DNA of 64,000 nt from Spiribacter salinus M19-40 (GTDB taxonomy: Bacteria; Pseudomonadota; Gammaproteobacteria; Nitrococcales; Nitrococcaceae), in the NCBI RefSeq assembly GCF_000319575.2, contig NC_021291.1, positions 930,001-994,000 of the forward strand. Direction: 5' to 3'. Position numbers and translations under genes: made by a program. Positions 16,962 to 49,010 of the stretch are shown here, in pieces; position 1 is the first letter of the stretch; the number at the start of each line of letters is the position of its first letter. The notes under the pieces are model-generated. The model was not told the origin of the DNA. It did not search any database and saw nothing but the letters and a program-made list of their open reading frames with translations.

Positions 16962-18256
16962 TGGCCCCGGAATTGCTGATCTTTGTGGTGATGGCCACCG
17001 CCATCGTGATCGGCACGCCCATCGCGACCGCGCTCGGTATCGCTGGGGTGGCGGGCATTGTGGTGGGACTGCCCCCCGCCATGCTGGCCACGCTGGGCAC
17101 CAACACCTTCAACGCCATCGCCAAATACCCGCTGGTCGCCATTCCGCTGTTTGTGCTGACAGGCATTATCTTTGAGCGATCCGGCGTGGCCGCCAGCCTG
17201 GTCGAATTTGCGCGCGCGATTGTGGGCGTGCGCCGGGGCGGGCTTGCCACGGTGGCCGTGGTGGTCTGCATGATCATGGGCGGCATGTCCGGCTCGGGCC
17301 CGGCCGACGCCGCCGCCGTGGCCACGGTGATGATCCCGAGCATGATGCGCGCGGGTTACCCCAAGGCCTTCTCCTCGGCGGTGATCGCGGCCTCCGCCTC
17401 AACCGCCATTCTGATCCCGCCCTCCGTGGCGCTCATCATCTACTCCATCCTGGTGCCGTCGGTGGATATTCGTGCCCTCTTCGCGGCCGGCCTCCTCCCG
17501 GGGTTCGTGGCCGGCGGCGCGGTTTTGCTACCGGCCCTCTGGCTCTCGCGGCGACATCATTTCGAATCCGGGGAGTCGGAGGCACGACCGGATCTTAAAA
17601 AGGCGTTTGTACGCGCCCTACCCGCCCTGTTCGCGCCCGTGCTGATTCTTGGCGGGCTGCGCAGTGGGCTTTTCACCCCCACCGAAGCCGCTGTCGTTGC
17701 CGTGGCCTATGGGCTGTTCATCGGCCTGGTGGTCTATCGCAATCTCAGTGCCCGGGCCATTTATTCAGCCCTTGTCGATGCCGCGATGATGTCCGGCATC
17801 ATACTGCTCATCATCTCGATGGCCGGTATCTTCGCCTGGGCAGGCAGTACGCTGGGGGCTTTCGATCAGGCGGCCGAGGCGGTCCTGTCCGTGTCTGATC
17901 ATCCGGCTGTCGTGCTCTTTTTGGTGCTCGTTTTCCTGATCCTGATCGGCATGGTGCTGGACGGGGTATCCATCTATATCATTCTGATCCCGATTCTGAT
18001 GCCCATCGTGAGCGCCTTCCAATGGAACCCGGTGTGGTTCGGCATCGTAATGGCGATGACCATCGCGATTGGTCAGTTCACGCCACCGGTGGCGGTTAAT
18101 CTGCTGGTCACTTCACGCATCGCCGGCGTCAGCATCGAATCCACCCTCGGTTGGACGCTGTGGTTCGTGTTGAGCATGATCGTGGCGCTCGCCCTGATCG
18201 TGCTGTTCCCCGCCATTGCCCTGTGGCTGCCCGAGGTGCTGGGTTACCGGGTCTAG
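16961..18256 (+). CDS. dctM: TRAP transporter large permease
   Basis: 431-residue polytopic large permease (DctM) carrying sodium-coupled substrate translocation. Motifs MIMGGMSGSGPADAAAVATV and ASASTAILIPPSVALIIYS are the family re-entrant hairpin signatures; a second repeat holds GQFTPPVAVNLLV. Start at ATG 16961 overlaps dctQ's stop (ctgATGg); a longer frame beginning at 16820 lies entirely within dctQ. Its last 4 nt overlap the convergent WYL regulator. Confidence 0.94.
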   Translation: MAPELLIFVVMATAIVIGTPIATALGIAGVAGIVVGLPPAMLATLGTNTFNAIAKYPLVAIPLFVLTGIIFERSGVAASLVEFARAIVGVRRGGLATVAVVVCMIMGGMSGSGPADAAAVATVMIPSMMRAGYPKAFSSAVIAASASTAILIPPSVALIIYSILVPSVDIRALFAAGLLPGFVAGGAVLLPALWLSRRHHFESGESEARPDLKKAFVRALPALFAPVLILGGLRSGLFTPTEAAVVAVAYGLFIGLVVYRNLSARAIYSALVDAAMMSGIILLIISMAGIFAWAGSTLGAFDQAAEAVLSVSDHPAVVLFLVLVFLILIGMVLDGVSIYIILIPILMPIVSAFQWNPVWFGIVMAMTIAIGQFTPPVAVNLLVTSRIAGVSIESTLGWTLWFVLSMIVALALIVLFPAIALWLPEVLGYRV

Positions 18257-19248
18257 CGGTATTGCGCGAGCGCCTGGTTCAAGCGCTCGACGAGCTCTTC
18301 ACGCAAAGCCTGGGGGGCGGTGACCTCGACCTGATCCCCCATGCCCAGGAGCCACCAGCGAAGCTGGGCGGTGTCGGGGACGGTGGCGGTAATCCGTCGC
18401 CGCCCGTCCTGGGCATTCGTTATGCGCTGATCGGTGCTGAGCGGCGTTTCCTCGAGGTGCACGGCCGTCTCGGCGGTGACCTGTAATTCAATGGCGAGGG
18501 GCTCATCACTGAGCTTGAAGTTGAGCCCGCCGTGGTTCACGTAAGCGGATAGATCGAAATCCGCGGGGCGATGCACGGGTTGATCGAGACCCTTGGCCTC
18601 CAGGAACCGGTGCATGGCCAGATGCACCACGTCGTCCCGGCCATTGCGCTGGCAGACGAGATACACCACCCCGTCGCGGAAAACGATACCCAGCGGGCTG
18701 ATCACATAGTCACGCGTTTCCCCGTCATAGCGGCGGTGATAGCGCGCGCGGAACTGGCGGTCATTAAATAGCCCGTCATAGACCGTGTGCAGGATCTCGG
18801 GGTCGATCGCCGGCGGGATAAGGCTTTGGCCGCGGGTGATGGACTGGATCTTTTCCGGCCAGGCGCTGACCGGGCTGGGCGTCTCAGCGAGCACCTGCTC
18901 GGCCTGCCGGAAATAAGGCTCAAGCGTGCTGCGGGTAGACGGTGCCATGAGTCGGCCCGAAAAATGTTCAGCCAGCTTAAAGGCCAGCGCCGTTTGCGGC
19001 TCCATGCCGGGGATGTCCATTTGACCTGCATCCCGGTCCCAGCACCAGCCGTGGGGCCGAGAGCGGTCATCCTGCATCAAGCCGAAGATCTGGCCAGACA
19101 GGCGCATCAAGTCCCGCTGAACGGTCCGCTCAGTGGTCGGATAACCCTGATCCTTCAGGTAAGCCAGCAGCTCACGGACAGTAATCTTTCTCGGATGCCG
19201 CGGAATACGCCGCAACATAACCCAATGGCGCAACAGCGTGTCGGTCAT
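18253..19248 (-). CDS. WYL-domain transcriptional regulator (YafY/PafC-like)
   Basis: 331-residue regulator: an N-terminal DeoR-like winged HTH (KITVRELLAYLKDQGYPTTE then RTVQRDLMRLS, residues 21-51) and a central WYL domain (ISPLGIVFRDGVVYLVCQRN, about 190-209, where the W-Y-L motif reads V-Y-L) with a C-terminal extension. WYL proteins sense ligands or nucleic acids and control defence or stress genes. It faces dctM tail to tail with 4 nt overlap, and its start is 52 bp from the end of urtE, on the same strand. The first 70 codons are duplicated at 30640-30849. Confidence 0.9.
   Translation of the reverse strand: MTDTLLRHWVMLRRIPRHPRKITVRELLAYLKDQGYPTTERTVQRDLMRLSGQIFGLMQDDRSRPHGWCWDRDAGQMDIPGMEPQTALAFKLAEHFSGRLMAPSTRSTLEPYFRQAEQVLAETPSPVSAWPEKIQSITRGQSLIPPAIDPEILHTVYDGLFNDRQFRARYHRRYDGETRDYVISPLGIVFRDGVVYLVCQRNGRDDVVHLAMHRFLEAKGLDQPVHRPADFDLSAYVNHGGLNFKLSDEPLAIELQVTAETAVHLEETPLSTDQRITNAQDGRRRITATVPDTAQLRWWLLGMGDQVEVTAPQALREELVERLNQALAQYR
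19039..19248 (-). repeat. Direct repeat, copy 1 (5' end of WYL gene)
   Basis: The first 210 bp of the WYL gene, repeated in the same orientation at 30640-30849. By eye 21 of 210 positions differ; 19115-19224 is identical to 30715-30824 over 110 bp. The two copies bracket the whole urt-ure block. Confidence 0.95.
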
Positions 19249-19300
19249 CGCGATTCCATCCGTGAATCGGTTTCTACCCGCCTACTCTAACGCCAATCGG

Positions 19301-19990
19301 CTACACCGTCAGGTAGCGCCGGACAAGATCGTCCCCCAGCTCGTCCATACGGCCGTCCGCCACCGAACGACCGCGGTCGAGGATGACGAATTGATCCGCG
19401 GTGCGACGGGCGAAGGGCAGCTTCTGCTCAACCAACAGCACGGTCATCGCCTGATCGCGGTTCAATCGCTGAATCACTTCACCGATCTCGCGGACGATAT
19501 TGGGCTGAATGCCCTCGGTGGGTTCATCGAGGATCAGCAGCCGGGGCTCCAGACACAATGCCCGCCCAATCGCCAGCTGCTGCTGTTGGCCGCCGGAAAG
19601 ATCACCACCCCGGCGGTGGCGCATATCATGGAGCACCGGAAACAGCTCATGGACGAGCGTCGGGATGTCACGGCGCCCTACCGACGTCCGGGCGACCCGC
19701 AGGTTCTCTTCCACGCTGAGCAGGGGGAAGATCTCGCGGCCCTGGGGGACATAACCGATGCCCCCACGGGCGCGCTGCTCGGCAGGTCGCGACTCGATGC
19801 GGCGACCATCGAACTCGATCTCCCCCGACGCTGCCGGCAGCAGGCCCATCACCGTCTTAAGCACCGTAGTCTTGCCGACGCCGTTCCGGCCCATCAGGCA
19901 GGTACAGCCCTGGGCCGGGACCTCGCAGTCCACATCCCAGAGGGTATGGCTCTCGCCGTAGTACTGATTCAGCTTGCGTATCGACAGCAT
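19301..19990 (-). CDS. urtE: Urea ABC transporter ATP-binding protein UrtE
   Basis: 229-residue ABC ATPase of the LivF type. Walker A GRNGVGKTTVLKTVMGL, signature LSGGQQQQLAIGRAL, Walker B LLILDEPTEGIQPNIV. The EGIQPNIV stretch is typical for UrtE among branched-chain-type ATPases. Last gene of urtABCDE, 3 bp after urtD; pairs with UrtD to power urea import through UrtB/UrtC. Confidence 0.95.
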   Translation of the reverse strand: MLSIRKLNQYYGESHTLWDVDCEVPAQGCTCLMGRNGVGKTTVLKTVMGLLPAASGEIEFDGRRIESRPAEQRARGGIGYVPQGREIFPLLSVEENLRVARTSVGRRDIPTLVHELFPVLHDMRHRRGGDLSGGQQQQLAIGRALCLEPRLLILDEPTEGIQPNIVREIGEVIQRLNRDQAMTVLLVEQKLPFARRTADQFVILDRGRSVADGRMDELGDDLVRRYLTV

Positions 19991-19993
19991 GCG

Positions 19994-20830
19994 CTAGTCT
20001 CCGAGATACACCTCGACCACGCGGGGGTCGGCCTGGACGGTATCCATGGACCCCTCGGCAAGGACCGAGCCCTGGTGAAGGACGGTAACCGTGCGAGCGA
20101 TGGAGCGCACAAAGTCCATGTCATGCTCAACCACCACCACCGAGTGGCGACCCGCAAGACGCTGCAGCAGCTCGCCGGTGCGGTCCATTTCCTGATGCGT
20201 CATGCCGGCGACCGGCTCATCGACCAGCAGCACCTGGGGGTTCTGCATGAGCAGCATGCCGATCTCCAGCCATTGCTTCTGGCCGTGGGAGAGCTGCCCG
20301 GCACGCGAATGCCCCGCCGACTGCAGCCCGATCTCGGTGAGCACCGAATCGATACGATCCCGCGATTCACCGTCGAGATGTTGGCGCAGCGTGGACCAGA
20401 CACCGCGCGGGCCCGCCATGGCCAGTTCCAGGTTCTCGACCACCCGATGCTCAGGGAATACCGTCGGTTTCTGGAATTTCCGGCCGATGCCGGCACGACT
20501 AATGTCTGTCTCCTGCATGCGCAGCAGATCCAGGCGCTGGCCCAGCCAAGCCTGCCCCTGATCGGGCTGGATGCGGCCGGTGATGACGTCCATCATGGTG
20601 CTCTTGCCGGCGCCATTGGGCCCAATGATGCAGCGCAGCTCGCCGACATCGATGTACAGGGTCAGGGCATCCAGCGCCCTGAACCCGTCGAAGCTGACGG
20701 TGATGTCCTCGAGGTAGAGGATCGGGCCGTGGCGGGTATCCACGCGCCCCGCCTCGAGGGGGTCCGGCATCATGAAGTCAAATACCCGATCCCGGCGCAT
20801 GACCTCGCGCGGTCTGTCCAGCAGGCTCAT
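19994..20830 (-). CDS. urtD: Urea ABC transporter ATP-binding protein UrtD
   Basis: 278-residue LivG-type ABC ATPase. Walker A GPNGAGKSTMMDVITG, signature LSHGQKQWLEIGMLL, Walker B VLLVDEPVAGMT. An N-terminal extension of ~40 residues precedes the ABC domain, as is usual for UrtD. It overlaps urtC by 4 nt (ATGA coupling). Confidence 0.95.
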   Translation of the reverse strand: MSLLDRPREVMRRDRVFDFMMPDPLEAGRVDTRHGPILYLEDITVSFDGFRALDALTLYIDVGELRCIIGPNGAGKSTMMDVITGRIQPDQGQAWLGQRLDLLRMQETDISRAGIGRKFQKPTVFPEHRVVENLELAMAGPRGVWSTLRQHLDGESRDRIDSVLTEIGLQSAGHSRAGQLSHGQKQWLEIGMLLMQNPQVLLVDEPVAGMTHQEMDRTGELLQRLAGRHSVVVVEHDMDFVRSIARTVTVLHQGSVLAEGSMDTVQADPRVVEVYLGD

Positions 20831-21957
20831 GAGCGATCCTCCCGGCGCCTTAAAAGCCCCACCAGTCCACGCGGGAAAAACATGGTGACCGCGACAAACA
20901 GCCCACCCAGGGCGAACAGCCAGAGCTCGGCGATCATCGCCGTCAACAGCGTCTGGGCATAATTGACCAGCGCGCCCCCCAGTGCCGCGCCGTAAAGCGT
21001 GCCGCGACCGCCCACCGCCACCCAGACCACGATCTCAATCGAGTTGAGCGGTGAGAATTCGCTCGGATTGATGATCCCCACCTGGGGGACATAAAGCGCC
21101 CCGGCCACTCCGGCCAGCATCGCCGAGAGGGTCCAGATCCAGAGTTTGTAGTGATCGGTGCGATAGCCCAGCGAGCGTGTGCGTGGCTCGGCATCGCGCA
21201 CGGCACGGACGACACGGCCGGCCCGCGAGCGGACCACCATGCGACAGAGCAGATAGGCCAGTCCAAGCGCGAGCGCTGAGGCCACGAACAGCGCCAGGCG
21301 TGTCTGGGGATCGGAGAGACTGAACCCCAGGATATCCTTGAAGTCGGTCAGGCCGTTGTTGCCGCCGAATCCCATCTCATTACGGAAAAACGCCAGCATG
21401 AAGGCATAGGTCATCGCCTGGCTGATGATGGACAGATACACCCCGGTGACCCGCGAACGGAACGCGAGCCAGCCAAAGATGAAGCCGAACACACCGGGCA
21501 CCAGCAGAGCCATCAGTGCGGCAAACCAGAACTGATCAAAGCCGTACCAGAACCACGGCAACTGCTCCCAGCCCAGAAAGACCATGAAATCCGGCAGCAC
21601 CGGATCGCCATAGACACCGCGGTCGCCGATCTGGCGCATCAGGTACATGCCCATGGCATACCCACCCAGGGCAAAGAACGCGCCATGCCCCAGGCTGAGA
21701 ATGCCCGCATAGCCCCACACCAAATCGAGGGCCAGCGCCAGCAGGGCGAAGCACAGATAGCGGCCGAGCAGATTGACCGTGTAGTCGCTCACATGAAACG
21801 GCGACGACGGCGATACCCCCTGGTTGAGGATCGGTATCACGACAATCAGTACCGCGAGCGCACCCAGCAGTATCCGGCCACCCATGTCGCCATGCAGCAG
21901 CCGCCGCCAGGGGCGCTCGGGAATCAGCCGGGTGGCCGAGGATTGCGGGGTCGCCAT
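20827..21957 (-). CDS. urtC: Urea ABC transporter permease UrtC
   Basis: 376-residue LivM-type permease with about ten hydrophobic segments. Family motifs: LVWGYAGILSLGHGAFFALG and AMLAGVAGALYVPQVGIINP. The acidic/Gly loop GFGGNNGLTDFKDILG is characteristic of UrtC. Begins 3 bp after urtB and overlaps urtD by 4 nt. Confidence 0.95.
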   Translation of the reverse strand: MATPQSSATRLIPERPWRRLLHGDMGGRILLGALAVLIVVIPILNQGVSPSSPFHVSDYTVNLLGRYLCFALLALALDLVWGYAGILSLGHGAFFALGGYAMGMYLMRQIGDRGVYGDPVLPDFMVFLGWEQLPWFWYGFDQFWFAALMALLVPGVFGFIFGWLAFRSRVTGVYLSIISQAMTYAFMLAFFRNEMGFGGNNGLTDFKDILGFSLSDPQTRLALFVASALALGLAYLLCRMVVRSRAGRVVRAVRDAEPRTRSLGYRTDHYKLWIWTLSAMLAGVAGALYVPQVGIINPSEFSPLNSIEIVVWVAVGGRGTLYGAALGGALVNYAQTLLTAMIAELWLFALGGLFVAVTMFFPRGLVGLLRRREDRS

Positions 21958-21960
21958 GCC

Positions 21961-23577
21961 TCAGCCCTCCGATGCCGCGCGACCACGCTGGGGGAACAGT
22001 CCCTGCGGGCGGCGTTGGATGAACAGGATCACGAACACCAGAACCAGCACCTTGGCGAGAACGGCGCCGGTTTCGGGCTCGAGGAACTTATTGAGCACGC
22101 CCAGCGACAGCCCGCCGACCAGCGTGCCCCAGAGACTGCCGGCGCCCCCGAACACCACCACCAGGAATGAGTCGATGATGTAGGCCTGACCCATATTGGG
22201 GCCGACATTGGTGATCTGCGACAGCGCGACACCGGCAAGGCCGGCGACCCCCGCCCCCAGGCCGAAGGTCAGTGCATCAATGCGCGATGAACTGACCCCC
22301 ACGGCCCGCGCCATGGCGCGGTTCTGTGACACCGCCCGCACCTTGAGGCCCAGCGTGGTGCGCTTGAACAGCAACAGCAGCAACCCGAACACCAGAAACG
22401 CGAACGCAATCACATAGAGCCGGTTGAGCGTCAGGCTGAGGGCCGCATTGACCTCGATGGCGCCGCTCATCCAATCTGGCGTACTCACCTGGCGGTTGAG
22501 TGGCGAGAACACCGTCCGCACCAGCTGCTGGAGGATCAGGCTGATACCGAAGGTGGCGAGCAGCGTCTCGAGCGGCCGCCCGTACAGAAACCGGATGACT
22601 CCGCGTTCGATGGCCACGCCAAACACCCCGGTGACCAGGAAGGCCGCCGGAATCGCGACGAACAGCGAATAATCGATTGCATTGGGCATCAGCAGCTGGA
22701 CCACATAGGTGGTGTAGGCGCCGAGCATGATCAGTTCGCCGTGCGCCATGTTGATGACGCCCATCACCCCGAAGGTGATGGCCAGCCCGAAAGCGGCGAG
22801 CATGAGGACCGATCCCGCCGACAGACCAAAGAATATCTGCTCGCCCAGTCCCCAGAGATCCCGCCGCTCCTCTATGCCGGTGAGGATCTCAGCGGCACGG
22901 GCCTGGACGGCCGGATCGGGGTCGTTTTCCGCCAGCCGGCGCACCTCATTGCGCACCCGATTGCGCAGCGAGCCATCCAGTGTCTCCAGCGCTTCCAGCC
23001 GGATCGCCGCCTCAGGGGCATCAAGACGCGCCAGCCCAATCGCCAACGACATATCCCGGCGAATCGCATCGACGGGCTCTTCCGCGACGAGGCCCTCCAT
23101 GCGCTCGGCAATCGCCGGGTCGGAGGATTCCAGCAGACGCTCGACCGCCTCGCTGCGCGCCTGGCGATCGGGGCTGGAGAGTCCCGCCAGCGCCAGCATC
23201 TTGCGCGCTTCGGTGCGAACCGCGTTGTTGATGCTCACCCGGCGGATTTCGTACTGCGAGGCCTCGCCGACCCGATCGCCACTGAGCGGATCGGTCACCG
23301 CAAACCCCGAATCAAGGCTGTCGGCGATGACGATCTCACCACCCCCGATCCGAAAGTACAGCCGGCTGTCGAGAAGGGCCTGCAGCACGGGCACTGCCCG
23401 CGGGTGGCCACTCTCAGCAATCGTGCGGACCGCCGCTGCCTTGTCATCAAAACTTCCCTCATTGAGCTGGCGCAGACTCGAGACCAACGCCTCGTCATCC
23501 GCCGCCCCGGCGGGCGACGCCGTCAGACCCAGGGCCATGAGCAGACTGACCAGCATGCATCGGGCAAAGCGTTTCAT
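21961..23577 (-). CDS. urtB: Urea ABC transporter permease UrtB
   Basis: 538-residue UrtB. A signal-peptide-like N-terminus (MKRFARCMLVSLLMALGLTA) and a ~210-residue periplasmic HEAT-like alpha-helical region (residues ~25-230) precede the LivH-type permease (FGLAITFGVMGVINMAHGEL and the C-terminal FIQRRPQGLFPQRGR). The long extension is normal for proteobacterial UrtB. Start ATG 23577 follows GAGGGATCATTC; a longer frame to 23799 runs into the end of urtA and lacks a ribosome site. Confidence 0.94.
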   Translation of the reverse strand: MKRFARCMLVSLLMALGLTASPAGAADDEALVSSLRQLNEGSFDDKAAAVRTIAESGHPRAVPVLQALLDSRLYFRIGGGEIVIADSLDSGFAVTDPLSGDRVGEASQYEIRRVSINNAVRTEARKMLALAGLSSPDRQARSEAVERLLESSDPAIAERMEGLVAEEPVDAIRRDMSLAIGLARLDAPEAAIRLEALETLDGSLRNRVRNEVRRLAENDPDPAVQARAAEILTGIEERRDLWGLGEQIFFGLSAGSVLMLAAFGLAITFGVMGVINMAHGELIMLGAYTTYVVQLLMPNAIDYSLFVAIPAAFLVTGVFGVAIERGVIRFLYGRPLETLLATFGISLILQQLVRTVFSPLNRQVSTPDWMSGAIEVNAALSLTLNRLYVIAFAFLVFGLLLLLFKRTTLGLKVRAVSQNRAMARAVGVSSSRIDALTFGLGAGVAGLAGVALSQITNVGPNMGQAYIIDSFLVVVFGGAGSLWGTLVGGLSLGVLNKFLEPETGAVLAKVLVLVFVILFIQRRPQGLFPQRGRAASEG

Positions 23578-23629
23578 GAATGATCCCTCAAGGCGCTGCC
23601 CCACCGGCGGCGGGGCAGCGTCACCATGG

Positions 23630-24946
23630 TCAGTCGCCGTAGTCCTGACCTGAACACACGCCGGTCTCGACGTTGTAGTTGCCGCAGAGCAACGGTGCCC
23701 GCCAGCTGGCGATGATGTCGCTGCTCTCGGGGAGATAGTCTGACCAGGCATCACCGGCCACTTCGCCGTTGGTTTCCCAGACCACCGAGAACTGCCCATC
23801 AGGCTGGATCTCGCCGATCATCACCGGCTTGGTGATGTGGTGGTTGGGCATCATGGTGGCGTAGCCGCCGGTGAGATTGGGGACGGTCACGCCGATGATC
23901 GCGTCCTGCACCGCTTCAACGTCGGTTGTACCGGCCCGGCGCACGGCCTCGACCCACATGTTGAAGCCGATGTAATGGGCCTCCATCGGATCGTTGGTGA
24001 CCGTCGAGGTATCGTCCTTGAACTCATGCCACGCCTGGATGAACTCGACGTTCTCCGTGGTCGGCGCGCTCATGAAGTAGTTCCACGCCGACATGTGACC
24101 GACCAGCGGTTCGGTATCGATTCCGGCAAGCTCCTGCTCACCCACCGAAAAGGCCACGACCGGAATATCCGAGGCGGAGACGCCCTGGTTGGCCAGCTCG
24201 GTGTAGAACGGCACGTTGGCGTCACCATTGATGGTCGAGACGATGGCGGTCTTCTCACCCTGGCCACCAAAGTCGCGCACATCCGAGACGATGCTCTGCC
24301 AGTCGGAATGCCCGAACGGCGTGTAGTTGATCATGATGTCTTCCTCGGCCACCCCGTTATCCATGAGGTACTGCTCGAGGATCTTGTTGGTGGTGCGGGG
24401 ATAGACATAGTCGGTCCCCAGCAGCGCGAAGCGCTCCACGTCAAGCTCATCCATCAGGTAATCAACCGCGGGAATGGCCTGCTGGTTGGGCGATGCGCCC
24501 AGATAGAAGACGTTCTCGGAGGATTCCTCGCCCTCATACTGCACCGGATAGAAGAGCAACCCATTGAGCTCTTCGAACACCGGCAGGACGGACTTTCGCG
24601 AAACCGATGTCCAGGTGCCGAAAACCACATCAACCTCATCGTCCGCCAGCAGCTGCCTTGCCTGCTCGGCGAATCGCGGCCAGTCCGAGGCCGGGTCCAC
24701 GACCACCGGTTCAATTTCGCGTCCAAGCAGGCCGCCGTTCTCGTTCTGCTGCTCGATGAGCATCTCGACGGTTTCCTTGAGGGCCGTCTCACTGATCGCC
24801 ATCGTGCCGGAGAGTGAATGCAGGATGCCGACCTTGATCGGATCCTCCTCCTGGGCCAGTGCGCTGTTGCCTCCCAGCCCAAGCGCCAGAACGCCAGCGG
24901 CAAGCGTACTTGCCACGCCGTTATGCAGTCGCTTCTTTGCGTACAT
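23630..24946 (-). CDS. urtA: Urea ABC transporter substrate-binding protein UrtA
   Basis: 438-residue periplasmic urea-binding protein of the Leu/Ile/Val-binding fold. Signal peptide MYAKKRLHNGVASTLAAGVL ending ALA-QEED; family signatures IKVGILHSLSGTMAISET, GLLFYPVQYEG and NHHITKPVMIGEIQPDGQF. The latter with the C-terminal cysteine pair (CGNYN...GVCSG) is diagnostic of UrtA/FmdD-type proteins. Start ATG 24946 is supported by AAAGGAGT upstream. First urt gene, 163 bp below ureG. Whether urea, or a short amide, is the ligand rests on the urease neighbourhood and family similarity. Confidence 0.94.
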   Translation of the reverse strand: MYAKKRLHNGVASTLAAGVLALGLGGNSALAQEEDPIKVGILHSLSGTMAISETALKETVEMLIEQQNENGGLLGREIEPVVVDPASDWPRFAEQARQLLADDEVDVVFGTWTSVSRKSVLPVFEELNGLLFYPVQYEGEESSENVFYLGASPNQQAIPAVDYLMDELDVERFALLGTDYVYPRTTNKILEQYLMDNGVAEEDIMINYTPFGHSDWQSIVSDVRDFGGQGEKTAIVSTINGDANVPFYTELANQGVSASDIPVVAFSVGEQELAGIDTEPLVGHMSAWNYFMSAPTTENVEFIQAWHEFKDDTSTVTNDPMEAHYIGFNMWVEAVRRAGTTDVEAVQDAIIGVTVPNLTGGYATMMPNHHITKPVMIGEIQPDGQFSVVWETNGEVAGDAWSDYLPESSDIIASWRAPLLCGNYNVETGVCSGQDYGD

Positions 24947-24973
24947 GCGTGAACTCCTTTGAAGTGAATCATC

Positions 24974-24990
24974 AGGCCGACCATCGGCCT
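24974..24990 (-). other. Hairpin in the urtA leader
   Basis: AGGCCGA-CCA-TCGGCCT is a perfect 7-bp stem with a 3-nt loop, 28 nt upstream of the urtA start. There is no following U-tract, so it is not a standard intrinsic terminator. It may stabilise the urtA message, which encodes the most abundant component, or mark partial termination after ureG. Confidence 0.5.
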
Positions 24991-25109
24991 GTTCACTGGA
25001 TAGCAATTAACGTGCCAGCTGTTCGGGGCACCGCCCGGCAGGCGTCAACCGGTGTCGCATGCGCCACACTGGTGCGGCCGCGACCGGCGATTCCCGCTCG
25101 TAGTGCAGG

Positions 25110-25736
25110 CTAGGCCACCGAGCGGGCCAGCATGCCCTCCCGCAGTATGAATTCGATGATGCCCTCAACGCCCTCTCCGGCGGCGATGCTCGCAAGCTGG
25201 AACGGGGCCTCGCCGCGCATCATGCGGCTGTCACGGGCCATCACGTCGAGCGACGCCCCCACCTGCGGCGCGAGGTCGGTCTTATTGATGACCAGCAGGT
25301 CAGAGCGTGTGATACCGGGGCCGCCCTTGCGCGGGATCTTGTCGCCGGCCGATACATCGATGACGTACAGGGTCAGATCGGAGAGTTCCGGCGAGAACGT
25401 GGCCGAGAGGTTGTCGCCACCACTTTCAATGAACACCACATCGAGATCACCAAAGCGCGCCTGCAGATCGGCGACCGCGGTGAGGTTCATTGACGCATCC
25501 TCGCGGATGGCGGTATGCGGACACCCACCCGTTTCAACGCCGACGATGCGCCCGCTGGGCAATGCCTCGTGGCGCGAGAGAAACTCGGCATCCTCGCGGG
25601 TGTAGATATCATTGGTGACCACGGCAAGCGACAGGCGCTCGCGAAGCGCCCGGCACAGCGCCAGCGTAAGGGCGGTCTTGCCGGATCCGACCGGTCCACC
25701 GATACCGACGCGCAGCGGAGTGGGATTATCTGTCAT
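25110..25736 (-). CDS. ureG: Urease accessory GTPase UreG
   Basis: 208-residue SIMIBI GTPase that delivers nickel to urease. P-loop [17 protein letters not shown] (residues ~11-27), Switch region [16 protein letters not shown] with the CPH metal-binding motif, Walker [20 protein letters not shown] and base-recognition VINKTDLAP. All catalytic elements are intact. Lies 29 bp after ureF on the same strand. Confidence 0.97.
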
Positions 25737-25765
25737 GACGGGTCATCCTCCGGAATTATGATCGT

Positions 25766-26446
25766 TCAGCTGCGGAACAGCCGTGAGTACTGGACCTCGT
25801 GCCAGCCGCTGGCCAGGCTGACGCCTGGGGTGGTGGCACCAATGGATTCATCATCGAGGGCAGCGGCGTTGTCGACGGCCCCGGGGATGGCGTCCGCGAT
25901 ACGAAGCAGCGCACGCTGACCGGCGCTCTGCCCCAGGGGGACGAGCTTGACCGCCGCCGCCACCTGATTCTCGGACCAGGCCCAGGCATAGCCGAGAGCC
26001 GCCTGATCCATGCCGATGGACCAGCGCGCGGTGGCCAGTGCGAAGGCGGTGGCCCAGGTGACATTGCGGTCACGGTCGAAAGTGAGCGCCTCGCTGATCC
26101 CGAACTCGCCGAGCAGCCGCATCAGTGCCCGGCCGATGTGAATATCCTCGGCGCGCAGCTCAGCGGTTTCCCGGGCCGCGAGCAGACGAGCGGTCCAGAC
26201 CTCGACCGCCGGGCGGTCGTCGCGCTGCCAGGCGGCCTGCAGACGCGCCAGTACGGGCAGATCAAGCGCCCCGATCCCGCTCTGCAACTGGCCGCCAACC
26301 CAATCAACCAGCGACGGCTCATCGCCGACCCAGCCCTGCTCAATGGCGGTTTCCAGGCCCGCCGAATAAGCGTAGGCGCCCACCGGCAGTGTCGGGCTCA
26401 GCAGCTGCCAAAGCCGCAGCGTTCGGGCATCAACGCCCTCAACCAT
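25766..26446 (-). CDS. ureF: Urease accessory protein UreF
   Basis: 226-residue all-helical UreF, the GTPase-activity regulator in the UreD-UreF-UreG complex. Motifs LWQLLSPTLPVGAYAYSAGLE at the start and PLGQSAGQRALLRIADAIP near the end (the conserved QR-containing helix). Start ATG 26446, overlapping ureE by 8 nt; the longer frame to 26752 lies within ureE. Length is normal. Confidence 0.94.
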   Translation of the reverse strand: MVEGVDARTLRLWQLLSPTLPVGAYAYSAGLETAIEQGWVGDEPSLVDWVGGQLQSGIGALDLPVLARLQAAWQRDDRPAVEVWTARLLAARETAELRAEDIHIGRALMRLLGEFGISEALTFDRDRNVTWATAFALATARWSIGMDQAALGYAWAWSENQVAAAVKLVPLGQSAGQRALLRIADAIPGAVDNAAALDDESIGATTPGVSLASGWHEVQYSRLFRS

Positions 26447-26891
26447 GATGGTGACCACCGCCGGCGTAGGCCCCGGACTCGGGTTGGAAAGGGGCGGTTT
26501 CATGAGTGGGCTCAGCGCCGAGCCCGCGCACCATTTCATTGAGCACATGGTCATGGCGGTAGCGCAGGTAGCCCTTGGCCACTTCCAATGGCGTATGCCG
26601 ATTACCCAGGTGATAGGCGGCCCGCAGCAGCACCAGCGGGTCGTCCGAGCGCACCGTGCTGACCGGCTCGGGCGCGGCCTCGACGCGGTAGATCCGGCCG
26701 GTGTCGTCAGCCAGTCCATCACCCGCGCGCAGGGCCGCCCCCCCGCGCTCAAGGATCACGCCGATGACCTCGCCATTATCCAGCGTGGCCCGAAACCGCG
26801 AGCGCTCACGTTGCTCGATGGTCAGGACCAGCGTGCCGACCACATCCTGATCCGCCGCGAGGGCCCCGAGCCGTTGTGTCAGTGTCTCCAT
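26439..26891 (-). CDS. ureE: Urease accessory nickel chaperone UreE
   Basis: 150-residue UreE that carries nickel to UreG. The N-terminal peptide-binding-like domain contains LTIEQRERSRFRATLDNGEV; the metal-binding domain includes AAYHLGNRHTPLEVAKGYLR with the conserved His of the dimer interface. The C-terminus ends in a short GGGHHHG cluster, a reduced form of the His-rich nickel tail. Overlaps ureF by 8 nt and starts 9 bp after ureC. Confidence 0.94.
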   Translation of the reverse strand: METLTQRLGALAADQDVVGTLVLTIEQRERSRFRATLDNGEVIGVILERGGAALRAGDGLADDTGRIYRVEAAPEPVSTVRSDDPLVLLRAAYHLGNRHTPLEVAKGYLRYRHDHVLNEMVRGLGAEPTHETAPFQPESGAYAGGGHHHG

Positions 26892-26900
26892 GACAGCCCC

Positions 26901-28604
26901 TCAGAAAAGGAAATAGCGCTGTGCAAGCGGTAGCTCCACCGCCGCTTCGCAGGTCAGCAGCTCGCCATCGGCGCGGACCTCGTAGGTCTGCGGGTCGACA
27001 CTGACCTCGGGCTGCCAGTCATTGAGCTTCATATCGGCCTTCCCCACGTCGCGGCAGTCCTTGACCGCCACCAGGCGCTTGTCGAGGTCCAGTCGCCCGC
27101 CGATGCCCGCTTCGATCGCGGCCTGGGAACAGAAAGTCACCGCGGTCTCGGCCACCGCCGCACCATGGGCGCCGAACATGCCCCGGTAATGCACCGGCTG
27201 CGGCGTGGGGATCGACCCGTTGGGATCCCCCATCGGCGCGGCGGCGATCATGCCGCCCTTGACGATCGTGCCCGGCTTGGCGCCGAAGAAAGCGGGCTTC
27301 CAGAGCACCAGATCAGCCAGCTTGCCCACCTCCAGCGATCCCACCTCGTGGGCGATACCGTGTGCGATCGCCGGATTGATGGTGTATTTGGCGACGTAGC
27401 GCCGGGCCCGCAGGTTGTCATGCCGATCGTTGTCCTCAGCGAGTGGCCCGAACTGCACCTTCATCTTGTGGGCGGTCTGCCAGGTGCGGGTGATCACCTC
27501 GCCGACCCGACCCATGGCCTGCGAGTCGGACGCGATCATCGAGAACGCACCGCGGTCGTGGAAGATGTCCTCGGCGGCGATAGTCTCGCGCCGGATCCGC
27601 GATTCCGCAAAGGCGACATCCTCGGGGATGGCCGGGTCGAGATGGTGGCAGACCATGAGCATGTCCAGATGCTCATCGATGGTGTTGCGGGTGTACGGGC
27701 GCGTCGGATTAGTGGACGACGGCAGAACGTTGGACTGCCCGCAGGCGCGGATGATGTCGGGGGCGTGGCCGCCGCCCGCGCCTTCCGTATGATAGGTGTG
27801 AATGGTCCGTCCTTTGAAAGCCGCAAGGGTGTCCTCGACGAACCCGGACTCGTTCAGGGTATCGGTATGAATGGCCACCTGGACGTCGTACTGCTCCGCG
27901 ATGTCGAGCGCGTTATCGATCGCCGCCGGCGTCGTCCCCCAGTCCTCATGCAGCTTGAGCCCCATCGCCCCGGCCTGCATCTGCTCATGCAACGCCTCGG
28001 GCAGGCTCGCGTTGCCCTTGCCCATGAAACCGAGATTCATCGGGAAGGCCTCGGCGGCCTGCAGCATCCGGTGGATATTCCACGCGCCCGGCGTGCAGGT
28101 GGTGGCATTGGTACCAGTCGCCGGACCGGTGCCGCCGCCCAGCATGGTGGTCACGCCCGACATCAGCGCCTCTTCAATCTGCTGTGGGCAGACGAAGTGG
28201 ATATGCGCATCAATGCCCCCGGCCGTCACGATGCTGCCCTCGGCGGCGAGCACCTCAGTGCCGGGGCCGATCACGATGTCGACGTGGGGCTGGGTATCGG
28301 GGTTGCCGGCCTTGCCGATGCCCGCAATCCGGCCGTCACGGACCCCGATGTCAGCTTTATAGACACCGGTGTAGTCAATGATCAGGGCGTTGGTGATGAT
28401 CAGATCGACGGCGGTTTCATTATCACGTTGACTCTGGCCCATGCCGTCGCGGATGACCTTACCGCCCCCGAACTTCACTTCATCGCCGTAGCAGGTCAGA
28501 TCCCGCTCGACTTCGACGAACAGATCGGTATCCCCCAGCCGGACGCGATCGCCGGTGGTCGGGCCATACATCTCGGCATAGGCCGATCGCTCAATCGAGG
28601 TCAT
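26901..28604 (-). CDS. ureC: Urease alpha subunit UreC
   Basis: 567-residue catalytic subunit hydrolysing urea to ammonia and carbamate. The whole active site is visible and follows Klebsiella numbering: H134 and H136 (IDAHIHF), carbamylated K217 (GLKLHEDW), H246, H272, flap C319/H320 (MVCHHLD) and D360 (ASDSQAMG). Overlaps ureB by 4 nt. With UreA and UreB it forms the cytoplasmic nickel enzyme. Confidence 0.99.
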
Positions 28605-28909
28605 TCCAACTCCCCCATGACTGCGGCGCGAAAGCCATAGATCGCGCGATCACCGGCGTAGGCCACCAGCTCGACCTCGCGGGACTGCCCCGGCTCAAAC
28701 CGCACGGCGGTGCCGGCCGGGATGTTGAGCCGGTGGCCGAGCGCGGCGTCGCGATCAAACTCCAGCGCCGGATTGACTTCGTGGAAATGGTAGTGGGATC
28801 CGACCTGAATCGGCCGGTCACCGGCGTTCGCCACTCGGACGGTCAGGGTCTCCCGCCCCGCGTTGAGCGCGATCTCGCCGGCCGCCGTGATCACCTCGCC
28901 GGGAATCAT
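28601..28909 (-). CDS. ureB: Urease beta subunit UreB
   Basis: 102-residue UreB with the family opening [20 protein letters not shown] and core [19 protein letters not shown] followed by [10 protein letters not shown]. Separate from ureA as in most proteobacteria (fused in Helicobacter). Overlaps both ureA and ureC by 4 nt, so all three subunits are translationally coupled in equimolar ratio. Confidence 0.98.
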
Positions 28910-29241
28910 GATGACACCGCGTGGCCGTCATCGGCCGCTTCAGCAATGGGGTCGTGAATCGTCACCAGCTTGGTCCCGTCGGGGAAAGTCGCCTCGACCT
29001 GGACCTCGCTGAGCATTTCCGGGATGCCGGGCATGACCTGCTCGCGGCTCAGCAGCTGCGTCCCCTCGCTCATCAGTTCGGCCACGCTGCGGCCATCGCG
29101 CGCGCCCTCGACGATGGCGTTGGCGATGTAGGCCATCGATTCCGGGTAGTTCAGTCGAACCCCCCGATGCAGGCGCCGCTCGGCGACCATCGCGGCGGTG
29201 GCGAGCATCAGCTTGTCCTTTTCTCTCGGCGTGAGTTGCAT
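28906..29241 (-). CDS. ureA: Urease gamma subunit UreA
   Basis: 111-residue Ure[41 protein letters not shown] and [20 protein letters not shown] are family signatures. It is about ten residues longer than the usual 100, by the acidic tail [11 protein letters not shown]. Lies 9 bp after ureD. Confidence 0.97.
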
Positions 29242-29250
29242 GCGTCCTCC

Positions 29251-30090
29251 TCAGGTATTCCAGATTCGGGGCCGACACATCGGCCGCCCCATCAACAAGG
29301 GGCGCAACGCCGCCCAGAGGCGCTCGCGCAGGGCATATCCCTCAAGCGCGCCCGCCCCCCGCCAGCGTACGACCAGCAGATCCTCCAGTCGGGTCGCCGA
29401 GGCCTCGCCCGGCATTGCGGCCAACACCCCACGCGCCGCCGTCAGTGCATCGGCATCCGCCGGGCCGGCCACCAGGGTGGCGAAGGCCGGCTGGCCGTTA
29501 AGGCCCCAAGGCGCGTCCACCGCGCGGCGACCGCCCTCGATACGGGCATGTTCCAGCAGCACCGGCCGTCCCTCGCGCCAGACCTCGAGACGCTGGCGGA
29601 GCGATCCCGACTCGAACGGCAGCCCGCCGGCCGGACGGCCCAGGCAGTTCAGCTCCCAGGCAAAGCAGCGGCTGTCAGCACCCAGATCAATACGGGTCAA
29701 TGCCTCGACGATCGCCCCCGAGAACACGATCTGCTCCTGGGGCAGCCACTCCAGTGTCGCCCCGGGGGCGACGCGCAGGTTCTGGCGCAGCGTCGCCGTG
29801 CGGCCCAGACTGCGGTAGAACTTGGTGGCACCGGGCGTCGTCAACAGGGCCCATGCCCCCTCCCGGACATCGGCGTCGAGGCTGATCCGATCACCCCCCA
29901 CCACACCACCGGGGGGATGCAGGACATAGCTATGGCAGGGGGCGCCCTCAGGGTGAAAGCTTCGCTGCACCCGCAACGGCCCTTCATGGCGCCGCCGCGC
30001 CAGCACGGTGCGGGCGGGGGTGGGCACGAAGGCGAGATCGAGCCGCGCCCGCCATCCTGGATCGGGGGCTGCCGGTGCCACCGCCGCCAT
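29251..30090 (-). CDS. ureD: Urease accessory protein UreD/UreH
   Basis: 279-residue UreD, the scaffold that binds apo-urease and channels nickel from UreG/UreF. Motifs HPEGAPCHSYVLHPPGGVVG (with the GG-GD turn that follows), LTTPGATKFYRS and LEWLPQEQIVFSGA are family hallmarks. Its start overlaps the preceding membrane gene's stop region (adjacent bases), heading the ureDABCEFG order. Confidence 0.95.
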   Translation of the reverse strand: MAAVAPAAPDPGWRARLDLAFVPTPARTVLARRRHEGPLRVQRSFHPEGAPCHSYVLHPPGGVVGGDRISLDADVREGAWALLTTPGATKFYRSLGRTATLRQNLRVAPGATLEWLPQEQIVFSGAIVEALTRIDLGADSRCFAWELNCLGRPAGGLPFESGSLRQRLEVWREGRPVLLEHARIEGGRRAVDAPWGLNGQPAFATLVAGPADADALTAARGVLAAMPGEASATRLEDLLVVRWRGAGALEGYALRERLWAALRPLLMGRPMCRPRIWNT

Positions 30091-30396
30091 TTAAACGGCG
30101 CCTGCGATCAGCCCGGTGCCAATCAAAGCGAACGCCGCCGCGGTACCGGCCAGCGACAACGCCGCCGGCGCACGACGGGCGTGCCGGAACCGGGCACTGC
30201 CCACCACTGCAACGATGGCCAGCAGCAACGCGCCCACTCCGAGCATGGCCGGGGACATGCCCAGCACGTGGCCGGTGTCGGCGATGTGCCAGTGGAAGAA
30301 CATCAGGCCGTGGCCGGTCTGCTCAGCGCTGTGGGCCCACGTCGCCGAGCTGGCGAGCAGCCCGGCAAGGAAGACGACGAGTGGATTCCGATGCAT
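30091..30396 (-). CDS. Small membrane protein heading the urease operon
   Basis: 101-residue protein starting at ATG 30396: signal-like or membrane segment MHRNPLVVFLAGLLASSATW, a His-rich loop (HSAEQTGHGLMFFHWHIADT with another His after), then two hydrophobic helices (about residues 49-69 and 79-99) separated by a basic loop RFRHARRAP. It abuts ureD exactly, so it belongs to the operon. HupE/UreJ nickel permeases occupy this position in other operons, but this protein is half the length and lacks their HPxxGxDH signature. A role in nickel handling is only a guess from position and histidines. Confidence 0.7.
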   Translation of the reverse strand: MHRNPLVVFLAGLLASSATWAHSAEQTGHGLMFFHWHIADTGHVLGMSPAMLGVGALLLAIVAVVGSARFRHARRAPAALSLAGTAAAFALIGTGLIAGAV

Positions 30397-30496
30397 GCTT
30401 GACTCCCTGATCGTGGTGATTGAGTAACGCCTCGCAATATGCAATTCGCTTGCCAAGCATCAGATCGGGGCAGAAACTCGCACAGCAATCACCACC

Positions 30497-30538
30497 GGTG
30501 CAGTTTTTTGCACCAAACCGGCTCATTTGGCACCAAAT
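30497..30538. promoter_or_regulatory. Inverted and direct repeats upstream of the urease operon
   Basis: Two dyads about 100 bp upstream of the operon: GGTGCA-N6-TGCACC (30497-30514) and ATTTGG-CA-CCAAAT (30525-30538). Read on the minus strand both contain TTTGGTGC, repeated about 21 bp apart, roughly two helical turns. This spacing suggests an operator for a dimeric regulator of urea/nitrogen or nickel genes. I see no good sigma54 (GG-N10-GC) promoter with full consensus here. Confidence 0.45.
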
Positions 30539-30591
30539 TGATGCAAATCGACTGACTCAAGGAGCGGCCTGCCCCACGATCCATCTGTTGA

Positions 30592-30849
30592 CTACCGGCT
30601 GCACCATGACGACGTCCTCAATCGCCCGTCGCAAGCACGCCAGCACCAGCCATGCGGCCGGGAACGATCGTCCTGCATCAACCCGAAGAGTTGACCGGAC
30701 AACCGGGTGAGATCGCGCTGAACGGTCCGCTCAGTGGTCGGATAACCCTGATCCTTCAGGTAAGCCAGCAGCTCACGGACAGTAATCTTTCTCGGATGCC
30801 GCGGAATACGCCGCAACATAACCCAGTGACGCAACAGCGTGTCGGTCAT
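30592..30849 (-). pseudogene. Truncated second copy of the WYL regulator
   Basis: Encodes residues 1-70 of the WYL regulator (68 of 70 identical to the copy at 18253-19248; differences T48 and L54) and then 15 unrelated residues before a stop. Only the HTH survives; the WYL domain is missing. Its ATG overlaps the Fic stop codon (ATGA), so a short HTH-only protein might still be made. The break is exactly where similarity to the first copy ends (30640). Confidence 0.85.
30640..30849 (-). repeat. Direct repeat, copy 2
   Basis: Partner of 19039-19248 in the same orientation, with a 110-bp perfect core at 30715-30824. Separation of the copies is 11,601 bp and encloses urtEDCBA and ureGFECBAD plus the small membrane gene. 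Confidence 0.95.
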
Positions 30850-31928
30850 TCCTTTGCCTCCTCGAGCGCTGGCAGGTTAAATAACAGCGATACCAAATCT
30901 CGGTTCACGTAATAGTTCTGTCGGCCAAGCCGATGCTTCTCGAGGATGCCGTCCGAGGCCAACGCATCCAGATACCGAGTGGCTGTTGCCCGCGACACCC
31001 CTAAATCCTGCTCGAGAAACGCGACCTTCGTGTAGGGATGTCGAAAGATGTTGTTGATCAAATCCTGGCTATAGAAGCGATGCCGCTGTCGAATAATGTG
31101 CTTATGTGAATGCAGCAAGTCCCCAGTCGCCTCCACCAGTCGGGTTGTATGGCTCGCCGTTACTGCGACGCCCTCTAGCAGGTAAACCAGCCAACGTTCC
31201 CAGTCACCCGTGTTACTCACATGCTGCAACTCCGTGTAGTACCGCACCTTGGTTTGGTTGATATAACGGCTAAGGTAGAGGATTGGAGAGTCCAGCAACC
31301 CTTCACGAACCAGTGCCAGAACATTAACGATGCGTCCGGTCCGGCCATTACCATCGTAAAACGGGTGAATGCGCTCGAACTGATGGTGGGCGACCGCCAT
31401 CCGGATCAACGGATCGGAAGGTGCCTCATCATGGAGATAGCTCTCAAGCTGAGACATCAGCTCAGGAACCCGCTCTGGCGATGGTGGCTGATAAACCACC
31501 TCGCCGGTCTGCTCGTTCCTAAGCACAGTGCCCGGTGTTCTTCGAAAGCCCGCGGTGTTCCCCTCGAGGACAGCCTGAATGTCGATGATCGTGTTGACGG
31601 TTAACAGGCCTGTCCGGCGTACCGCCTGCAGACCGACCAGCAAGCCATCGACATAACGCGCCACCTCCTTGGTCGCTGGGTCCGCTTGTGACGGCTGGAC
31701 TTGCTGGCGATAGAGCGCATCCTGAGTCGTAATAATGTTCTCAATCGCGGAGCTGCTCTGCGCCTCCTGAAGAGAGAGCGTTGAGACAAGCAGACCTTCG
31801 TTGGGAATCGTCTTGGCCACCCCTTTCAACTCTGCGAGGCTTCGATGGGCCGCCACAAGCGCGCGCATGACCGGCAATGTCTCGAGTGACTGTCGGGGCG
31901 GAAAGTATTCATCGATCGCTAAAGCCAT
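30846..31928 (-). CDS. Fic-domain AMP-transferase (class II, self-inhibited)
   Basis: 360-residue Fic enzyme that would AMPylate target hydroxyls. The catalytic motif HPFYDGNGRTGR spans residues 188-199, a perfect HxFx(D/E)GNGRxxR. The inhibitory helix motif SSAIEN (residues 59-64, consensus S/TxxxE) is N-terminal, marking class II. A C-terminal winged helix (VSRATATRYLDALASDGILE, about 316-335) resembles the SoFic/BtFic group. Start at ATG 31928 gives the family N-terminus. Its TGA overlaps the ATG of the truncated WYL copy. Confidence 0.92.
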   Translation of the reverse strand: MALAIDEYFPPRQSLETLPVMRALVAAHRSLAELKGVAKTIPNEGLLVSTLSLQEAQSSSAIENIITTQDALYRQQVQPSQADPATKEVARYVDGLLVGLQAVRRTGLLTVNTIIDIQAVLEGNTAGFRRTPGTVLRNEQTGEVVYQPPSPERVPELMSQLESYLHDEAPSDPLIRMAVAHHQFERIHPFYDGNGRTGRIVNVLALVREGLLDSPILYLSRYINQTKVRYYTELQHVSNTGDWERWLVYLLEGVAVTASHTTRLVEATGDLLHSHKHIIRQRHRFYSQDLINNIFRHPYTKVAFLEQDLGVSRATATRYLDALASDGILEKHRLGRQNYYVNRDLVSLLFNLPALEEAKE

Positions 31929-32051
31929 CACCCGCTCCCTTAGTCTGCAAAAACTGCTCAAAAAACGGATTATTTGATCAGGATAAGGCTTAACTTCTCA
32001 CAAACCGTTGAAATTGAACAGCCCAGCCTGGGCGGTAGGATCAAAACCTAC

Positions 32052-32957
32052 TCAGGGGCTGCTCAGCGGGGGCAACTGTAATTCGATCGCCTCGCGCATG
32101 CTCTCATGCGCCTCAGTAAGCTTGAGTGCCTCGCCGAGCGACTCGGCAGGCTCGTCGACGGTAAAGCCCGGATCATCGGTGGCAATCTCAAAGAGCATCC
32201 CACCGGGTTCCCGGAAATACACCGAGCGGAAATAGAACCGGTCCACCTCGCCCGAGCACGGCATCCGCGTGGCCTGCACGCGCTCGACCATCTCGAGCAG
32301 CGCCGGGCGATCCGGCACCCGAAAGGCCACATGATGGACCGTGCCGTATCCCGGCTGCCCTGGCGCAACGTCATGAAGCAGGTGGAGTTGATCGCCCGGG
32401 CCACCGTCCGCGCTGTGAAAGACGCGTCCCTCGTCGTCAGCTTGTGCCTCGGTATACCCAAGCAGCTCGGTGAGCACGCGGGCCGTCGCCTCCGGGCGAT
32501 GACTCGAGAGCGTCATCCCAGCGAAGCCCCGAATGGCCATGCCCGGCTCGATGCCCGCCTCTGATTGGCCCATCAGCGCCAGCGGCAGGCCATCCGGGTC
32601 GCGAAACCGCACCATTGGCGCGCCGGTTGCGGCCGATGCCTGCTCCACAGCGACCCCGGCCGACGCCAGTCGCGCACGCCAGTCATCCAGCGCCGCCACC
32701 GGCACCGCAAACCGCGTCTCAAGCGGCTGGCCACGCCCGGGCTGCCCCGCGGGCACACCGGGGAAGGGGAAAAACGTCATCGCCGTGCCCGGGCGGCCTA
32801 GGGCATCCCCGTAATACAGGTGATAGGTAAACGGATCGTCCTGATTGACGGTCTTTTTCACCAGACGCAGTCCGAGCACGCCGGCATAGAAATCAAGATT
32901 GCGCTGTGGATCGGCAGCAACCGCAGTGATGTGGTGAAGGCCGTTGACTGGGTTCAT
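32052..32957 (-). CDS. Glyoxalase-fold ring-cleaving dioxygenase (MhqO-like)
   Basis: 301-residue protein with two vicinal-oxygen-chelate modules. Begins MNPVNGLHHITAVAADPQRN and contains FYAGVLGLRLVKKTVNQDD, the signature of the MhqO/MhqA hydroquinone-dioxygenase family; the second module starts near GFAGMTLSSHRPEATARVL. Probable iron ligands are H9, H222-region (GTVHHVAFR) and a C-terminal Glu (GGMLFEIATD). In Bacillus, relatives detoxify quinones. Stands alone. Confidence 0.86.
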   Translation of the reverse strand: MNPVNGLHHITAVAADPQRNLDFYAGVLGLRLVKKTVNQDDPFTYHLYYGDALGRPGTAMTFFPFPGVPAGQPGRGQPLETRFAVPVAALDDWRARLASAGVAVEQASAATGAPMVRFRDPDGLPLALMGQSEAGIEPGMAIRGFAGMTLSSHRPEATARVLTELLGYTEAQADDEGRVFHSADGGPGDQLHLLHDVAPGQPGYGTVHHVAFRVPDRPALLEMVERVQATRMPCSGEVDRFYFRSVYFREPGGMLFEIATDDPGFTVDEPAESLGEALKLTEAHESMREAIELQLPPLSSP

Positions 32958-36634: not shown

Positions 36635-36731
36635 TGGGCGTGTGGCTCGGTTGCGCCGGGGCAAGCAGGTGCATGACCAGCCGCACTTCTACCTGCTGGG
36701 CATCGTCTTCGAAGATGATTAGATCGCTCAT
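36627..36731 (-). pseudogene. RhuM-like 5' stub, 34 codons
   Basis: Small reading frame from ATG 36731, whose ATG overlaps the higA TGA (ATGA), encoding MSDLIIFEDDAQQVEVRLV and then 15 unrelated residues. The first ~18 residues resemble the N-terminus of RhuM-family proteins (typically ...Y-x-S-E/D-D-G-x-x-x-x-V-R-L before a WLSQ motif), which is missing. Its stop lies in the first codons of rlmKL. Most likely a deletion joined the stub to rlmKL. Confidence 0.5.
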
Positions 36732-38979: not shown

Positions 38980-38996
38980 AACTATCCCCTCCTTCG

Positions 38997-40787: not shown

Positions 40788-40972
40788 CAATGGCCCTCCC
40801 AAGCCGCTCAGCTCGCCCAAAAACTGGGACGCTGAAGGGATGTCATCCGTTACACGGGCACTCGGGTCACCTTAACTGTGATGGCCAAGCCTGCAACCCA
40901 ATACAACTGATTTCTCCCAGAGTGTCGCACGGCAACGCACCCAGCCCCCTCTCAGACCCGGGTTTTCGTGGA

Positions 40973-45387: not shown

Positions 45388-45500
45388 TCGTGGACTCCGA
45401 AGACACAGGCCGACAGAGGATGGATTTGAACACCCCTCTCATCGACAGTGCCGTTGAGCTGTGCAGGAAATATGCCTTGATAATCCACTATGGCCCCAAC

Positions 45501-48926: not shown

Positions 48927-49010
48927 TACGGATTCTTTTTGTGTTGATCAGCCATTCAGAAACATCTCCGCGGTAGCAATGCGTGACGTGCTGCGATTAT
49001 CCGTGGTGAC

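Follow-up and report, generated by a model that had tools for sequence, protein, structure and literature searches.

Gene organization of the urea locus

The window analysed here, a 64,000-nucleotide stretch of the Spiribacter salinus M19-40 genome (contig NC_021291.1, positions 930,001 to 994,000), carries an uninterrupted cluster of genes for a urea transporter (urtEDCBA) and for urease (ureDABCEFG), which together with an open reading frame (ORF) of 121 residues forms what we call the module. The module lies between a full-length gene for a WYL regulator and a second, truncated copy of the start of that gene, upstream of which stand a Fic gene and a glyoxalase-family gene (Table 1). We compared the locus within a set of 14 genomes of the genus, labelled G000 (S. 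salinus M19-40 itself), G012, G014 and so on. An earlier reading of the window from its sequence alone (hereafter referred to as the sequence-only reading) had placed all of urtABCDE and ureDABCEFG between the two WYL copies, and the family assignments by Pfam and NCBIfam agree with it, UrtB and UrtC being placed by cluster position, as they match the general permease family BPD_transp_2 only. The 121-residue ORF had no match in Pfam or NCBIfam.

Table 1. Features of the urea locus and its borders, with coordinates in the window
Feature	Position	Strand	Basis or remark
Full-length WYL regulator gene (WYL and WCX domains, 331 residues; coding part G014-like)	18253..19248	-	Domain and sequence comparison
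Repeat copy 1, WYL nucleotides 1–210	19039..19248	-	Sequence comparison
Identical run of 110 nucleotides, WYL nucleotides 25–134	19115..19224	-	Copy alignment
Junction J2, where promoter and start codon of a donor-type WYL (−25 to +20) run into WYL coding sequence of the recipient type	19229..19273	-	42/45 nucleotides as in G012
urtEDCBA, urea ABC transporter genes	19301..24946	-	UrtE, UrtD, UrtA by NCBIfam; UrtB, UrtC permease family
ureDABCEFG, urease genes	25110..30090	-	UreA, B, C, D, E, F by Pfam; UreG by NCBIfam
121-residue ORF, part of the transferred module	30091..30456	-	96% amino acid identity in G012, 64% in G020
Stub of donor asparaginase gene, first 32 nucleotides, start codon ATG now ACG	30576..30607	+	Homology to G012
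32-nucleotide filler at the presumably illegitimate junction J1	30608..30639	.	No convincing match
Repeat copy 2, truncated WYL nucleotides 1–210; ATG overlaps Fic stop codon	30640..30849	-	Sequence comparison
Fic protein, SoFic-like, HPFYDGNGRTGR motif; locally low GC	30846..31961	-	Family, motif and GC
Glyoxalase-family gene, marker of the native WYL neighbourhood	32052..32957	-	83% amino acid identity to the G014 gene, there upstream of WYL on the same strand

The two copies of the WYL start had been described in the sequence-only reading as a direct repeat with an identical core of 110 nucleotides. Their alignment bears this out: they run in the same orientation over 210 nucleotides with 21 mismatches (90% identity) at a spacing of 11,601 nucleotides. 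The length of the core and the position of its first copy were correct, and the second copy lies, by this spacing, at 30716–30825 instead of 30715–30824. The length of the identical run is not a product of chance, because none of 200,000 random placements of 21 mismatches in 210 positions gave a run that long. A query covering 18900–19400 had exactly two matches in the whole genome (one contig of 1,739,487 bases) and no third. Among the genus genomes, a WYL match was found in 11 of 14 (partial in G017), two matches being present in G000 only; with the first 70 residues as the query, 10 of 14 genomes matched and again G000 alone did so twice.

Outside the core, at nucleotides 135–210 of the gene, the copies agree at 57 of 76 positions, a difference of about 25%, and 17 of the 19 codons that differ over the whole repeat are synonymous. 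In this outer part the truncated copy shares 54/76 positions with G012 and 63/76 with G014, and the full-length gene shares 59/76 and 62/76, respectively. The two copies, judged by these comparisons, are two alleles of a G014-like WYL gene that diverged as working genes and are joined to the identical block of 110 nucleotides. The truncated copy is read as an ORF of 85 residues (30592–30849), the frame of which enters unrelated sequence after 70 codons.

Transfer of the module between species

From 19249 to 30606, the window is identical to G012 at 11,047 of 11,358 nucleotides (97.3%) without any gap, and it is 85.8% identical to G020; the modules of G012 and G020 are 86.2% identical to each other. 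G000 and G012 share only 80% identity in gyrB and 86.0% in rpoB (an rpoB comparison of G000 with G010, giving 50.6% over 3418 columns, was dropped as an evident alignment failure). A module identity of 97.3% against 80% for gyrB argues that the module was recently transferred between species into G000. For G012 and G020, the identities of gyrB (90%), WYL (86%, nucleotides) and asparaginase (87%, amino acids) agree with that of the module, which therefore descended together with the genome in these two species. The WYL gene of G000 has the opposite pattern to the module: it is closer to G014 (79% nucleotide and 86% amino acid identity) than to G012 (68% and 67%, respectively), which rules out its coding part as a piece of the transferred DNA.

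Eleven loci around WYL were taken from the genus genomes and compared. G012 and G020 share the gene order WYL, urtEDCBA, ureGFECBAD, the 121-residue ORF and an asparaginase gene (identified by Pfam and NCBIfam), with the module beside a single intact WYL gene. In G009, which has the same WYL neighbourhood, WYL and asparaginase face each other about 120 nucleotides apart with no cluster between them. The module is present or absent between the same neighbour genes, as in a flexible island, and empty (G009), donor-type (G012 and G020) and recipient (the window) sites are all available for comparison. ureC occurs in 6 of the 14 genomes (G000, G010, G011, G012, G018 in two pieces, and G020). The asparaginase gene occurs in four, not including G000, where no match to it was found elsewhere in the genome (E up to 1e-15). 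A cluster of the same gene order, but more distant, is present in G010 and G011; in G010 it lies away from WYL, and G011 has no WYL match.

The slice found in G000 carries the 5′ ends of both donor neighbour genes, and this fixes the direction of transfer. The sequence comparisons make it very probable that the G012 lineage was the source of the module and that the joins fell within WYL and asparaginase. The case is an ordinary horizontal transfer, unusually well resolved; the order of the integration steps is much less certain than the transfer itself. A plasmid search matched 123 records, none of which covered 80% of the query; among the matches listed, eight were 72.7–75.7% identical over 16–18% of it. 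No WYL relatives were confirmed in viral contigs, a phage collection not being included in that search. A scan of genome contigs for WYL, which may omit near genomes, gave one distant relative (Massilia, 41%).

The two junctions

At J2, the WYL end of the module, the window agrees with G012 at 24 of 25 nucleotides from −25 to −1 and at 18 of 20 from +1 to +20, and then at 27 of 40 from +21 to +60. The promoter stretch is recognisable nearly as well in G009, which has no module; it is thus a part of WYL, not of the module. This end therefore shows a homologous anchor, in which the donor WYL promoter up to the start codon runs into WYL sequence of the host type, and the coding sequence of the host WYL gene now stands behind urtE and the promoter of the donor.

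At J1, on the opposite side of the module, the match to G012 extends 32 nucleotides into the asparaginase gene and ends at 30607. Next comes the filler (30608–30639), which gave alignments at chance level only, and then the truncated WYL, which begins with CCAGCAC. The same heptamer occurs in the donor asparaginase gene 2 nucleotides past the break; at J1, however, the filler stands between the asparaginase stub and the truncated WYL. The region 30560–31000 matches other genomes only piecewise: the asparaginase stub in G012, WYL in seven genomes and Fic in G021. The gene order in the window is WYL, urea module, truncated WYL, Fic, glyoxalase, and in G014, a genome without ureC, WYL, genes for a tripartite ATP-independent periplasmic (TRAP) transporter and the glyoxalase gene stand in a row on one strand. 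Since the linkage of glyoxalase and WYL is common to G014 and the window, the truncated copy is the one that keeps the native position next to the glyoxalase side, the module having pushed in at the start of WYL.

A proposed course of integration

The best explanation, which we hold to be reasonably probable, is that a slice of a G012-lineage genome integrated at the host WYL gene, by homology at one end and illegitimately at the other, and that a WYL allele was exchanged later. The donor would have been a species of that lineage with the urt-ure cluster between its WYL and asparaginase genes, and the cluster would have come in together with the 5′ end of each of these two genes. At its WYL end, as the sequence shows, the incoming DNA paired with the WYL gene of the host, and recombination took place at the start codon or immediately behind it. 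The other end, about ten codons into asparaginase, would have been joined without real homology to the host WYL gene near nucleotide 210, possibly by way of the seven nucleotides CCAGCAC. Because this second join lay beyond the anchor, the first 210 nucleotides of WYL would have been doubled. A later exchange with another strain may then have replaced WYL from about nucleotide 135 onwards; we propose this step because the outer 76 nucleotides differ by 25%, mostly at synonymous sites. The identical block of 110 nucleotides would be the remnant of the original duplication. A simple target-site duplication followed by drift was rejected as the sole cause, given this 25% difference, the 17 of 19 synonymous codons and a module only 2.7% away from G012.

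Several observations weigh against this course of events. The outer part of the truncated copy is neither G012-like nor identical to the full-length gene, its closest agreement being with G014. A single event with a G012-like donor would have made it one or the other, and the proposed course therefore needs either a second event or a third lineage. Two mismatches on the J2 side of the core, at nucleotides 21 and 24, are not of the G012 type, and the 32-nucleotide filler has no explanation. A TRAP transporter, and not Fic, stands between WYL and glyoxalase in G014, and the arrangement of Fic and WYL that would have preceded the insertion was found in none of the 14 genus genomes.

Other explanations of the repeat

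The main rival is the integration of a circle by a single crossover. A linear donor fragment ending in WYL (near nucleotide 210) and in asparaginase would have been ligated and then integrated within the start of the host WYL gene; the truncated copy would combine a host start with a donor end, the full-length copy a donor start with host sequence after the crossover, and the core would be the crossover tract. In one step this accounts for both the different outer alleles and the donor promoter before the full copy, and it yields the type of product reported as the commonest in the Escherichia coli experiments with linear DNA that PMC3240628 describes. The part of the truncated copy that would come from the donor (30640–30714) is not G012-like (54/76, against 63/76 for G014), and a donor lineage that has not been seen would be needed, one in which the G012 module and promoter were already joined to a G014-like WYL gene. 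We consider this course unlikely.

Two long-lived functional genes would be expected to show a difference such as the mostly synonymous 25% outside the core, and this speaks for a second alternative: two tandem WYL paralogues once stood behind Fic, the module took the place of the stretch running from nucleotide 210 of the first up to where the second begins, and the core became identical through gene conversion. Two WYL starts occur in none of the other genus genomes with a match (10 of the 14 genomes match), and we regard such an ancestry as distinctly improbable.

The sequence-only reading had raised two possibilities for the repeats, namely that they allow the module to leave as a circle, urea use being a reversible or transferable trait, or that they are the scar of its arrival. 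The second has gained support from the recent transfer from the G012 lineage and from the extra WYL piece being confined to G000. As to the first, the transfer of urea use finds support in the sequences; its dependence on the repeats does not, since in G012 and G020 the module stands beside one WYL gene with no direct repeat around it (blastn, plus strand, E up to 1e-3, 15 kb each). The module thus predates the WYL duplication, and the repeat as a native end of a mobile element is rejected. The core, with 110 identical nucleotides in direct orientation, could possibly serve for a RecA-dependent loop-out that deletes the module: nucleotides 1–134 of one copy and 135–996 of the other make an open frame of 331 residues, and the deletion would leave this WYL gene right behind Fic.

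There is a slim chance that the scar is at the same time a live switch, with RecA excising the module within the 110-nucleotide block in a fraction of the cells. Cells would then switch back and forth between two states: one that uses urea, in which WYL stands 52 nucleotides behind urtE, and one without the urea genes, in which WYL is coupled translationally to Fic. The chance is slimmer still that the repeats are the functional ends of a unit of 11.6 kb that leaves as a circle and reinserts, switching urea use on and off. The identity and direct orientation of the core and the open hybrid frame would suit such a unit. Against it stand the repeat-free modules of G012 and G020, the nature of the repeat as ordinary coding sequence of a regulator and of the junctions as fragments of donor neighbours, and the gene content: no integrase, recombinase or transposase is found among the genes between the repeats, all of which are assigned except the 121-residue ORF. 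The only tRNA or tmRNA gene in the window is a tmRNA gene at 7684–8041 (tag ANDDNYALAA). An assembly artefact at 30.6 kb, to which the absence of junction J1 from every other genome might point, is barely credible, given a published genome described as a single contig (PMC3832224), a module–WYL adjacency common to two other species, and a decayed stub with filler that is atypical of a misjoin.

Relation to known islands and recombination events

The urease cluster is already known as part of a genomic island. As far as the text of PMC3832224 that we draw on goes, island GI2 of S. salinus M19-40 contains the cluster, which is absent from UAH-SP71 and variable in metagenomes, with little high-identity recruitment and many matches below 97%. 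The locus treated here is the same cluster; the donor lineage, the insertion boundaries and the WYL duplication are not given in that portion of the account.

Homology-facilitated illegitimate recombination (HFIR), in which one end is joined by homology and the other without it, is described for Streptococcus pneumoniae, Acinetobacter baylyi and Pseudomonas stutzeri, with microhomology of 3–10 bp at the illegitimate junction; in E. coli given linear DNA, 56 of 60 clones had a partial duplication of the target, of 109–950 bp in 14 sequenced clones (PMC3240628, in the sections concerned). The urea locus resembles these cases in its homologous anchor at one end, in what may be a non-homologous join at the other, and in a partial target duplication, the 210-nucleotide WYL start being present twice in G000 and once in the other matching genomes. 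It differs in being a natural event, with an 11.4-kb insert, the 32-nucleotide filler and a later or concurrent change of the WYL allele. For the displacement of type VI secretion modules in Vibrio cholerae, the authors propose an HFIR-like mechanism (PMC5361080, in the part that deals with it); there too a conserved stretch anchors the transferred module, and orphaned pieces of the former locus are left over. In V. cholerae these pieces are immunity genes that may serve a selective role, whereas the remnant here is a truncated regulator start with no evident role.

What appears to have moved is a complete nitrogen-acquisition trait, between species of a streamlined halophile and without an evident integrase or transposon, and the event can be followed at base resolution. 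The piece was a chromosomal slice that ends on either side in the first codons of a donor neighbour gene and is anchored in a shared regulator gene. With the 110-nucleotide repeat, the stability of such a scar can be put to a simple test.

Expression context and neighbouring genes

The cluster probably kept its own promoter, as the region between the 121-residue ORF and asparaginase came along with it. The transfer rewired the WYL regulator, which now follows urtE by 52 nucleotides and has the donor promoter; the spacing is the same in all three genomes with the module beside WYL (G000, G012 and G020). Promoter and terminator scans of 19150–19450 gave no match, and with so short a gap and no terminator-like match in this region, read-through from urtE into WYL is possible. 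The neighbours of WYL vary between species on both sides (loci L016–L024), with TRAP genes in G014 and the urea module in three genomes, and these varied neighbours give no support to WYL as a regulator of the urea genes. In several species WYL has neighbours in common with what we take to be a recBCD-like region.

The Fic gene is found in 2 of the 14 genomes and, in the other one (G021), does not stand beside WYL. Its stretch has a GC content of 0.551 (31000–31999), against 0.60–0.70 in the kilobase bins of 19000–30999, and Fic may be an earlier arrival. Alongside the HPFYDGNGRTGR motif, the protein has an internal SSAIEN, which is similar to the inhibitory motif of self-inhibited Fic proteins.

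Farther along the window, BREX-like (bacteriophage exclusion) defence genes (brxL, pglZ, pglX, brxC and brxB) occupy 40976–53018 on the minus strand, and a gene for an HNH nuclease and a GmrSD-like gene precede them at 38061–40820. The gene labelled rlmKL (34517–36664) is 91% identical to that of G014 at the nucleotide level, against 78% in gyrB for the same pair, a hint of local exchange.

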